Shown here: positions 30,734-34,281 of the stretch, piece by piece | Layout of the letters: every line of letters starts with the position of its first letter | How positions within the stretch are numbered: the first letter of the stretch is position 1 | Origin: a virus | Length of the DNA stretch: 37,035 nucleotides | Virus record (IMG/VR): IMGVR_UViG_3300036770_002429 | Span: 1-37,035 of that record | Strand: one strand, 5' to 3' | Notes under the pieces: generated by a model | Database searches by the model: none | What the model was told of the DNA's origin: nothing | What the model saw: only the letters and a program-made list of their open reading frames with translations | Made by a program: the position numbers and the translations under genes

Positions 30734-32260
30734 ATGACCGATATATCACGGTTCAAAGCAATATTCTCCGGATTGGATGTTGCCTACGGGACTTACAAGA
30801 TTGATAAGTCTCGGGGGGATGGCAAGCAGACAGGTAAGGCTGTTGTTGTACGTCAACCACCAACAGATGATCTTTGGGAAAAACACTTACAGGGCGTAGA
30901 ACCCTCCCTGGGCATCATCCCCATTCGTGCAGACAACACCTGCATCTGGGGCTGCATTGACATTGACCAGTATCCGTTAGACCACAAGGGTCTCGTGGAG
31001 AAGGTCCGCAAATTGAAACTTCCGCTTGTGGTTTGCAGGAGTAAGTCTGGCGGCGCGCATTGCTTCTTGTTCACCAAGGAGCCCGTCGCTGCTGGCAGCA
31101 TGCAGGCCTGCCTCAAAACAATGGCCGCCCTGTTAGGCGAGGCTGGACGAGAGATCTTCCCTAAGCAGGCAGAGATTCTGATTGAGCGCGGTGACACAGG
31201 CAACTTTCTGAACCTGCCTTACTTTGCAGGTGATGAGGGCATGCGCTATGCCCTCAACGATGACGGCACCGCCGCAACACTCGAAGAGTTTTACGGGCTA
31301 TATACGTCCTACGTACAAGATGGACTGCCTGAGGTTGAGCCGCCCACACAACCAGATCTGCCAATCAAGGACGGCCCACCATGCCTCCAGGCCCTCTGCT
31401 CACAGGGCTTTCCTGAAGGCACAAGAAACAATGGCTTATTTAACATCGGCATCTATCTGAAGAAGGTCAACCCGAACGATTGGGAGAACCCCTTCTTCGA
31501 GCACAACATGAAGTACCTCTCACCTCCGTTGCCCATCTCTGAGGTGCAGGTGCTCGTCAAGCAGTTGAACAAGAAAGAGTACAACTACAAGTGCAAGGAC
31601 CAGCCCCTCAACAGCTTTTGCAATTCTGGCCTTTGCAGGACACGCAAGTTCGGGATCGGCGGCAATGGCCCGGACTCGCCAAAGCTTTCTAGCCTGTCGA
31701 AGTACAATTCAGAACCGCCTCTGTGGTTTCTGAATGTAGACGGTAGGCGGGTGGAATTGGAGACAGATAGTCTTTACAACCAGAACCTGTTTCAGAAGGC
31801 CTGTGTTGAAAAGATCAACATGCTCCCGCCCACCCTTCGTAAACAAGATTGGGAAGGAATGCTCAACGGTCTTCTACGCGAGATGGTTGAGATGGAACAG
31901 ATAATTGAAGCCCCGCAAGACACAAGCCTCACTGGCCGTTTTATTGACCTCCTGGAAGAATTTACGACCCACCTCCAGCAGGCAATGGACCGAGACGAAA
32001 TCCTCATGGGAAGACCGTGGACGGATGAAGAAACCGCGAAGACTTATTTCCGGATCAAGGACCTGGAGGGTCACCTCAAAAGGAACAACTTCGTCGGATT
32101 GAACTCAGCCAAGATCGCGCAGCGTCTACGCGATCTCGGTGGTGAGCCCATGCCCCTGTTCTTGAAGGGGCGCACAACACGCTGCTGGGCCATCCCTCGT
32201 TTCGAGAAGCAAGACGCACCTTTTGAAGCTGCCGTGCAGATGAAGGGGAGTCCTTTTTAA
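30734..32260 (+). CDS. Archaeo-eukaryotic (AEP) primase / primase-polymerase, TOTE-like
   Basis: The protein has 508 residues. The AEP core is at ~30-200: CIDIDQYP (74-81) supplies the Asp76/Asp78 metal site, VVCRSKSGGAHCFLF (99-113) is the sGG-H motif, and NFLNLPYF with MRYAL (157-174) closes the fold, as in TOTE-type and other mobile-element primases. A following stretch, GFPEGTRNNGLFNIGIYLKK (about 224-243), matches the PriCT-type helical module. Cys residues in CKDQPLNSFCNSGLCRTR form a likely zinc site. The C-terminal part is helical and unassigned. It makes primers for the family A polymerase encoded downstream. A regulated terminator lies upstream. Confidence 0.8.
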   Translation: MTDISRFKAIFSGLDVAYGTYKIDKSRGDGKQTGKAVVVRQPPTDDLWEKHLQGVEPSLGIIPIRADNTCIWGCIDIDQYPLDHKGLVEKVRKLKLPLVVCRSKSGGAHCFLFTKEPVAAGSMQACLKTMAALLGEAGREIFPKQAEILIERGDTGNFLNLPYFAGDEGMRYALNDDGTAATLEEFYGLYTSYVQDGLPEVEPPTQPDLPIKDGPPCLQALCSQGFPEGTRNNGLFNIGIYLKKVNPNDWENPFFEHNMKYLSPPLPISEVQVLVKQLNKKEYNYKCKDQPLNSFCNSGLCRTRKFGIGGNGPDSPKLSSLSKYNSEPPLWFLNVDGRRVELETDSLYNQNLFQKACVEKINMLPPTLRKQDWEGMLNGLLREMVEMEQIIEAPQDTSLTGRFIDLLEEFTTHLQQAMDRDEILMGRPWTDEETAKTYFRIKDLEGHLKRNNFVGLNSAKIAQRLRDLGGEPMPLFLKGRTTRCWAIPRFEKQDAPFEAAVQMKGSPF

Positions 32261-32267
32261 AATGCAA

Positions 32268-32368
32268 GTTTTGTCCTATACTAGAAAAGCCCTAGCTCGA
32301 CGGAGCGAAAAACAGTTTCCCTACTGTCTGGGCGCTTTTCTACTTAGGGGTTTTGTAAGGGACAAAAC
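32268..32368 (+). ncRNA. Candidate structured RNA (three-way junction) before the HNH gene
   Basis: Outer stem: gttttgtcc (32268-32276) with ggacaaaac (32360-32368), nine pairs. Inner stem: tagaaaagc (32282-32290) with gcttttcta (32334-32342), nine pairs, continued after a bulged C by ccta with tggg. It opens into two hairpins, gctc/gagc (32295-32306) and acagt/actgt (32312-32327), making a three-way junction. The outer 3' strand can instead pair with a second copy of gttttgt (32350-32356), leaving aaggg in the loop. The ribosome site of the HNH gene (taaggga) lies at this switch point. It may be a cis-regulator of the HNH gene; the A-run/T-run inner stem could also work as a terminator after the primase. 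Confidence 0.45.
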
Positions 32369-32369
32369 A

Positions 32370-32786
32370 ATGCAAAAGCTTTGTGAATGCGGCTGTGGGC
32401 AAGAGACGCCTATCGCGACGAGAACACGAACAGAAAGAGGGCAAGAAAAAGGAAAGCCCCTTCGCTTCATTAACGGACACAATTCTCGTCTTCTTACTTC
32501 AGAAGAACAAAAAAGAAGGGTCTCGTTCCGAGACTACTCTCTTTCTCGCTATTCAGGTTCTCCTGAAAACTACATCAAATACCACCAAAGGCATCTGCAT
32601 CGAGTTGTTGCAGAAAAAATGCTTAATCGTCCATTAGAACCAGGAGAGATTGTTCACCACAAAGATGGGAACAAATGGAATAACGAAGAAAGTAATCTTG
32701 AGGTCATGACTCAGTCTGAACACGCAAGAATACATAGCTTAGAAAGATGGAAAAAAGTAAAGGAGGATAGGGCCGATGATCTATAA
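32370..32786 (+). CDS. HNH homing-type endonuclease
   Basis: The start chosen is ATG 32370 (138 residues), because the CECGCG domain begins there and TAAGGGA precedes it; an ATG 108 bases earlier only adds translated RNA-structure sequence. The N-terminal part has CECGCGQETP and RFINGHNSR (5-40), a Cys/His region common in free-standing phage HNH enzymes. The HNH motif is at about 94-123: IVHHKDGNKWNNEESNLEVM and then SEHARIHS, with His96/His97, Asn109 and His118/His122. It makes DNA breaks, probably at a site in related phages. The end overlaps the start of the helicase gene by 11 bases and contains its ribosome site. Codon use is more AT-rich than in the neighbouring replication genes. Confidence 0.85.
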   Translation: MQKLCECGCGQETPIATRTRTERGQEKGKPLRFINGHNSRLLTSEEQKRRVSFRDYSLSRYSGSPENYIKYHQRHLHRVVAEKMLNRPLEPGEIVHHKDGNKWNNEESNLEVMTQSEHARIHSLERWKKVKEDRADDL

Positions 32787-34281
32787 AATCTTCGGCCCTC
32801 CATAACTAGGTACGGGCAAAACAACCTTCCTGCTGAACACTGTAGAGAAAGAACTCGACTCTGGGATCCTGCCCATCGACATCGGCTACTTCGCCTTCAC
32901 ACGCAAGGCAGCCAATGAGGCCAAGGATCGGGCCATCATCAAGTTCCCAAACCTCCAGGGCCAGACAGACTTCCCGTGGTTCAGGACGCTACACAGTCTT
33001 GCCTACCGCTGCTTAGGCGTGAAGCAAAACGACATGATGTCCCCGGAGCACTACGCAGAATTCGGGAAACTTGCACGGCTGGACATGACCATCGAGGAGA
33101 CGGGCGAAGAAGAAGGGTTCGTGAAGGCCAACAACCCGATTCTTAACGAGATCAACCTTGCACGGATCAAGAAATTAGACCTTCGCACCCATTACAACCG
33201 CTCACGCCTCGCTATCGAGTGGTGGCACTTCGAGTTCGTAGAGCGCACCTACCGCAAGTACAAAGAAGAGCACATGCTGCTTGACTTCACCGACTTACTG
33301 GAGAACATCAACCTCGAGCCAGAGCGCCTCCCGAAACTCAAGACCGTGATCGTGGACGAGGCCCAAGATCTCTCTCCTATCCAATGGGATCTGGTCAAGA
33401 ACCTCATCGACCGCTCTGAGGATACCTACATCGCAGGGGACGATGACCAAGCGATCTACTCATGGGCCGGGGCGGACGTTAAAACATTTTTGGAACTTCC
33501 TGGCGAAGTCCGTGTCTTAGATAAATCCTACCGGATACCTAAGTCTGTCCATCGTCTAGCAGACAGAATCTCCTCCCAAATCAAGCGACGCCAACCCAAA
33601 TTCTGGCAAGCACGGGAAGAAGAAGGCGAGATCCACTACCACAACAGCGTTGCCTCAGTCCCCATGGAAGAAGGCTCGTGGCTCTTTCTCGCTGCTGCCA
33701 ACTACCTGATCGATCCTCTCCACCCATGGCTCAAGGCCCAAGGTGTTCTCTTCGAGCGCAATGGCAACCGGAGCATTTCCCAGAACATCCTCAGTGCCGT
33801 GCTCGGTTGGGAGTCGCTACGCAAGGGCAATTCCATAGCGTTTCCCGTTGTCGAACAGATCTACAAGCACCTCGGCGCAGATGGCATCAAGCGCGGCCAC
33901 AAGAGTCTGAAGACCGCTGACTCTGAGAAGCTCTACACCATGAAGGATCTCAAAGAAGACCACGGCCTACTGACTGATGCTATCTGGCACGAGGCCCTGA
34001 CCCGCATCGCCGAAGACAAACGCGACTACATCATCGCCCTCTTACGTAGGGGCATCAAACTTACCAGCACCCCGCAAGTAAAACTCTCCACGATCCACGG
34101 AGCAAAAGGCGGGGAAGCAGATCACGTCGTGTTCTTTCTGGACCTCTCATCGAAGTTCGCCAAAGAATACGACATTCGTCCTGACGATATGTACCGGCTG
34201 GCCTACGTTGCCGCCACACGGTCGAAGAAGACCTTGCACATCGTCCTACCAGAATACGCAGATAGAGGCTTTCGTTTATGA
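32776..34281 (+). pseudogene. UvrD/PcrA-like SF1 helicase, interrupted by a stop in Walker A
   Basis: ATG 32776 follows a strong AAAGGAGG (32759-32766). It reads MIYKIFGPP, then TAA CTA (32803-32808), then GTGKTTFLLN in the same frame to 34281. Removing six bases restores GPPGTGKTT, a standard P-loop. Further motifs are intact: AFTRKAANEA, FRTLHSLAYRC, VDEAQDLSP (about 33352-33375), AGDDDQAIYSWAG, VLDKSYRIP, STIHGAKGGEADHVV and YVAATRSKK. The next possible in-frame start is GTG 33019, which would lack the P-loop and be inactive. Either the gene is broken, the stop is read through or bypassed, or the sequence contains an error. Reading through would still insert two residues into the P-loop. 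The stop of the gene overlaps the polymerase start (ATGA). Confidence 0.8.

Follow-up and report, generated by a model that had tools for sequence, protein, structure and literature searches.

An int-alpA-class RNA before a phage HNH endonuclease gene and a candidate stop hop in the neighbouring helicase gene

The viral DNA of 37,035 nucleotides (nt) held in IMG/VR record IMGVR_UViG_3300036770_002429 (hereafter the window, meaning the whole stretch analysed) raises the question of why an elaborately folded RNA should stand between a primase gene and an HNH endonuclease gene. A first-pass annotation had proposed a three-way-junction RNA whose two exclusive pairings would switch translation of the HNH gene, and which might be conserved, undescribed and linked to HNH genes. 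The answer that we consider probable is that the RNA is a 5′ leader of the int-alpA class, which would control HNH translation as the first part of a mobile homing cassette made up of RNA leader, HNH gene and hop element. With slightly more assurance, we consider the third part of this cassette to be a natural in-frame six-base stop hop in the helicase P-loop, which helicases in at least 32 distinct phage loci would use, which would have been gained or lost several times, and whose insert would protect the phage from its own endonuclease.

The RNA, its family and its relatives

Comparison with all Rfam families, which the first-pass annotation had recommended, returned one match, RF02996 (int-alpA RNA), at 32285-32350 with 44.4 bits against a cut-off of 35.8. 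The RNA belongs to this catalogued family by sequence and structure and, since the match lies above the curated cut-off, it is not an undescribed RNA as had been suggested. The three-stem junction with the conserved CCUAG, CGAAAA and CUGG that characterizes the family is present in the window. The source of RF02996 is reportedly Weinberg 2017, and our search of the literature on int-alpA and RF02996 found no paper on its function. The features of the RNA and of the gene after it are as follows.

32268-32276, + strand: 5′ arm of the outer stem, GTTTTGTCC, upstream of the −10-like box; its partner on a read-through RNA is 32360-32368
32277-32282, + strand: −10-like hexamer TATACT with a predicted transcript start at about 32288, called from positional enrichment in viral members
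32283-32341, + strand: three-way junction RNA (Rfam RF02996 match; covariation of P1, P2 and P3)
32317-32323, + strand: P3 loop TTCCCT(A), resembling an anti-Shine-Dalgarno (anti-SD) sequence, with two possible partners (permutation tests)
32344-32350, + strand: site A, TTAGGGG, partner of the P3 loop and putative decoy of the Shine-Dalgarno (SD) sequence (loop complementarity and permutation tests)
32350-32368, + strand: hairpin P4, GTTTTGT-AAGGG-ACAAAAC, whose loop holds the SD (site B); pairing above permuted arms, z 5.3
32370-32786, + strand: HNH_3 homing-type endonuclease gene, 138 amino acids (PF13392, E-value 1.7e-12)

The fold energy of the region was −42.1 kcal/mol against −28.1 ± 3.3 in 200 shuffles (z −4.2), with 0 of the 200 as low; the structured RNA upstream of the HNH gene is real, beyond chance. 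The elements described by the first-pass annotation are all in the sequence: an outer stem of nine exact pairs between GTTTTGTCC (32268-32276) and GGACAAAAC (32360-32368), the inner stem P1 (32283-32292 with 32330-32341, with a two-base bulge), the hairpins P2 (32295-32306) and P3 (32312-32327), and a GTTTTGT repeat with copies at 32268 and 32350. The second copy also pairs locally (32350-32356 with 32362-32368), leaving AAGGG in the loop, and the GG of the ribosome site is paired in the outer-stem form and looped in the local-hairpin form of the window folding, as had been stated. No terminator-like site (a G+C-rich hairpin followed by a T run) was found at 32268-32368, and identity with an ordinary intrinsic terminator, which the annotation had named as a possible objection, was rejected. 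An extension of the HNH coding sequence from the in-frame ATG at 32262 was also rejected, as relatives have stops or another frame across the RNA; among them the region is either closed or open in one of two different frames, and it is thus not coding.

Two differences from the Rfam description were observed. The window RNA lies between a primase and an HNH gene in a phage replication operon rather than between integrase and alpA, and the Rfam structure line shown has neither the SD nor the double pairing of the P3 loop. The likeness consists in the same three-way junction, and, because location is outside the covariance model, the integrase-alpA placement explains how the family got its name but does not define it, so that membership stands.

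The RNA was found before the HNH gene in every close homologue examined, 14 of 14 by motif, and in L328 by Rfam, with the start codon at a near-constant distance, which agrees with the translational placement proposed earlier. With the Rfam model, RF02996 stood directly before the HNH gene in 9/9 close HNH loci tested versus 0/6 loci without HNH. The empty-site twin L233, which shares 95.7% identity with the window up to 32256 (the last primase codons) and 93.8% from 32775 (the helicase start), has neither the RNA nor the HNH gene, suggesting that the two were gained or lost as a single insert. Within this phage group, the RNA travels with the HNH gene.

Relatives were searched for in viral contigs and bacterial genomes with a pattern derived from the Rfam consensus, which matched 103 stretches in the former and at least 120 in the latter; at least 186 distinct members from phage and bacterial contigs were left once chance hits and identical copies had been removed. 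In almost all members listed, a start codon follows the P3 stem by 33-54 nt (mostly 35-50 nt). The protein downstream of viral members matches HNH_3 in 17 of 69 cases and endonuclease VII in 9 of 69, with the others being diverse, and the downstream proteins of bacterial members are mostly of no known kind. Phage integrases accounted for 57 of the 88 upstream proteins tested, viral and bacterial pooled, and no AlpA match occurred among the families listed for the immediate downstream genes of bacterial and prophage members. Conservation of the RNA and its position before HNH genes in close homologues are therefore borne out, and a general link to HNH genes is not, since in phages the RNA also stands before endonuclease VII-type genes, and in prophages before unrelated genes next to integrases. 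Integrative elements may have a variable cargo slot that is marked by RF02996-type RNAs.

Two side observations concern these relatives. In L107-L226, from bacterial genomes, RF02996-type RNAs lie between integrases and highly diverse first genes. In L045, L060, L062, L071, L084 and L088 the RNA precedes endonuclease-like genes (endonuclease VII type, from the Pfam tally and by eye), next to which bypass-like inserts were checked for in the P-loop form.

Loop pairings and control of the HNH gene

The covariation check suggested by the first-pass annotation was run on the collected relatives, and P1, P2 and P3 all covary. At the second outer position of P1, 65 of 71 members retain the pairing and all four Watson-Crick types occur, compared with 27 after shuffling. 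The P1 pairs had not been used for member selection, whereas the P3 pairing had been used in parsing members, which makes P3 the weaker evidence of the two. CCTAG, CGACGG and CGAAAA in the junction are invariant and the stems variable. The P3 loop is complementary both to a segment of the spacer (site A) and to the SD region (site B), and examples of its pairings among members include CCTCATTA with TAATGAGG, CACTCAA with TTGAGTG, and TCAGC with GCTGA. When loops were dealt randomly among members in 2000 permutations, the loop-site A match was 4.5 observed versus 3.1 permuted (z 14) and the loop-SD match 5.0 versus 3.7 (z 12) in 74 non-redundant members, with z values of 10 and 9.5, respectively, in a non-redundant set of 33. 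Across sets the z values ranged over 10-18 and both matches beat every one of the 2000 permutations, with a parallel-strand control of the loop pairings much closer to the permuted values. Across members, the SD often lies inside the loop of the further hairpin P4 (pairing z 5.3 against permuted arms).

Site A and the SD are mutually exclusive partners of the P3 loop, which gives the usual form of a translational switch, consisting of anti-SD, decoy and SD. Pairing of the P3 loop with site A would open the SD and allow HNH translation, and pairing with the SD would turn HNH off; the conserved junction would decide between the two through a factor available in many Proteobacteria. The claim of two exclusive pairings as a switch thus survives in altered form, as the long-range and local pairs named by the annotation are not strong beyond the window and its closest relatives, and the conserved alternative is that of the P3 loop with site A or the SD.

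As a conserved switch the outer stem is weak, and it is likely a local addition. When the upstream segment was shuffled, chance equalled its nine pairs in 0.1% of cases. In the window folding, an RNA with the 5′ arm has the SD paired (unpaired probability of its three G 0.04, 0 and 0), and one starting near 32288 has it mostly free (0.90, 0.18 and 0.96); the evidence for a promoter is the −10-like box, and the outer stem is unconserved. Boxes of this kind are enriched just before P1 in viral members, with 46 hits at −24 to −13 versus 9.4 per equal-length stretch elsewhere, which suggests that many int-alpA-class RNAs are 5′ leaders transcribed from a start of their own. In this phage, the nine-pair stem would likely act as a further lock, hiding the SD on messenger RNA read through from the primase gene, and transcription from the promoter-like site within the cassette would yield an RNA that lacks the 5′ arm and so bypasses it. 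Switch and lock alike would keep the endonuclease in check, a role that RNA structures have for T4-type homing endonucleases.

Several points weigh against a leader that controls the HNH gene. Rfam labels RF02996 as Gene; sRNA and not as a cis element, and a strict two-box promoter scan of the window called no promoter. The more distant HNH relative L338 lacks the RNA, so the absence of the structure from HNH homologues, which the first-pass annotation had said would count against it, occurs there and in none of the close homologues examined. The permutation tests count related sequences as independent, and the non-redundant sets lessen the effect of kinship without abolishing it. Site B must be an SD regardless, and the loop-SD match may partly follow from the resemblance of site A to an SD. 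As for the outer stem, its nine pairs in the window compare with 3-7 in 13 relatives, and its match against permutation gave P 0.012 with Watson-Crick pairs only and P 0.42 with G-U pairs allowed.

The explanation that survives best beside it is a narrower version of the same leader, in which an orphan riboswitch binds its ligand at the junction and the deciding factor is a small molecule. Invariant CCTAG, CGACGG and CGAAAA within variable stems, together with an SD-type output, would suit a riboswitch, but a host protein or the ribosome could be recognised equally well, and the controlled genes share no pathway and so suggest no ligand; we regard this version as possible but rather unlikely. 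It is quite improbable that nothing but the local and long-range hairpins matters, as plain hairpins hiding the ribosome-binding site, of the I-TevI or mobE type, and that the int-alpA core is a mere spacer or stabiliser. Such control is known for T4-type endonucleases and the outer stem and promoter-like site of the window are arranged exactly so, but the outer stem is not conserved, and from phages to bacteria the core hardly varies and keeps its P3-loop pairs, which a spacer would not need. A separate trans-acting small RNA that ends near the gene by chance would fit the Rfam label and the great diversity of downstream genes, but is very doubtful given the near-constant distance of the start codons, the covariation of the P3 loop with the SD of the next gene and the lack of a terminator after the RNA.

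The interrupted P-loop of the helicase gene

The third part of the proposed cassette lies at the start of the gene that follows.

32769-32799, + strand: hairpin ending right before the take-off codon, found in 31 of 31 hop loci with enough upstream sequence
32776-34281, + strand: UvrD-like helicase gene, open apart from a stop at 32803 (reading frame and family match)
32800-32811, + strand: candidate CCA take-off, TAA stop, CTA landing and GGT resume codons, inside the helicase P-loop codons

An in-frame stop in the P-loop codons was found in the window and in every HNH-bearing relative readable there. The interrupted form reads FGPP-stop-(L or P)-G(T/S/A/C)GKTT, with the rest of the 500-codon gene open, and DSL-LC04, L233 and most of the other homologues that lack HNH have an intact FGPPG(T/S)GKTT. 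When any six bases were allowed at the insert point, the search yielded 39 contigs, exactly the set given by the stop-specific pattern, and an artefact of the search was therefore rejected; dropping the F codon from the pattern brought in another four loci, from helicases that are more divergent. The 32 distinct inserts all consist of a stop (12 TAA, 11 TGA, 9 TAG) followed by CTN (22) or CCN (10). An alternative genetic code or suppressor tRNA is unlikely, as TAA, TAG and TGA all occur at the site and no tRNA gene is present in the window. The hairpin precedes the CCN take-off codon in each of those 31 loci, often in different letters, and its mean energy is −20.7 in hop loci versus −5.8 in intact helicases. 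Two hop-bearing helicases, L318 and L325, apparently carry inteins further downstream, as judged by eye from the translation.

The best reading of the insert is a six-base in-frame stop hop, analogous to the bypass of T4 MobA/gene 60. Such a hop would restore GPP-GTGKTT exactly. The landing codon is of the identical class, CCN, in 10 loci, and CCN-CTN pairs with a matched third base make up 22, the third base of CTN tracking the take-off codon as A to A (3), T to T (3), and G to G (9) or A (7), with a permutation P of 5e-5 that ignores relatedness. This matching fits the prediction for re-pairing of the proline tRNA and not read-through. Simple read-through of the stop, giving a P-loop two residues longer with no hop, would keep the frame and could draw on the C that always follows the stop; it is distinctly unlikely, since two additional residues would disturb the P-loop and Leu and Pro are the only residues that follow it, always encoded by CTN or CCN and never by TTA or TTG. 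Under the six-base hop, the insert would protect the phage from its own endonuclease and hopping ribosomes would restore the P-loop.

A tree of 89 helicases requires at least 6-8 changes of the hop state. An HNH gene lies beside 14 of the 34 hop helicases versus 0 of the 55 intact ones (Fisher P 2e-7, with relatedness ignored). The stop and hairpin occur without an upstream HNH gene in L243 (2973-3000), L314-L316, L319, L320, L327 and L329, as expected if the insert outlives the endonuclease. Elsewhere in the window, a protein of the Pam3 gp34 family (PF23977, 29918-30679) adjoins the AEP-TOTE group primase (30734-32260).

Comparison with known systems

For int-alpA, a catalogued family for which we know of no function, the analysis provides a testable model, that of an anti-SD loop with two partners, and it would explain why such an RNA stands before a selfish endonuclease. 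A review of 2016 knew in-frame stop hopping only from synthetic constructs, with no natural occurrence (PMC5009743), and no later report of a helicase stop hop was found in our literature search, which reached few subscription papers. Confirmation would make this the first in-frame stop hop known from nature, and with so many natural versions at hand, evolution itself could show which rules ribosome hopping follows.

In T4 I-TevI and other phage endonucleases, RNA hides the ribosome-binding site in a manner dependent on the promoter used (PMC2988022, PMC3014915). The leader of the window would resemble those of T4-type homing endonucleases (I-TevI, Aeh1 mobE, segB) in that folding predicts a hidden SD on the read-through RNA and the promoter-like site would omit the 5′ arm, and differs from them in adding the int-alpA junction and a second, SD-like decoy. 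L243 and L329 (CCA-stop-CCA) and L326 (CCT-stop-CCT) match exactly the synthetic stop-hops of Weiss et al. 1987, as cited in PMC5009743, those being laboratory constructs and these natural loci.

The closest parallel is T4 mobA and gene 60, where an HNH endonuclease likewise adjoins a gene with a noncoding insert, the stop directly follows the take-off codon, a 5′ stem-loop is present and the landing codon appears related to the take-off codon. The T4 pair of mobA HNH gene and gene 60 bypass has likewise been explained by a link between insert and endonuclease in which the insert outlasts it (PMC5009743). The differences are a gap of six bases in frame against 50 bases in gene 60, a proline take-off, a helicase P-loop instead of a topoisomerase, and at least 32 distinct phage loci against one. 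With its six-base gap and different gene, the cassette would work like that of MobA/gene 60 without being a member of it and, if confirmed, would be the second case, far wider than T4 gene 60, of a homing endonuclease with a ribosome-bypass element.
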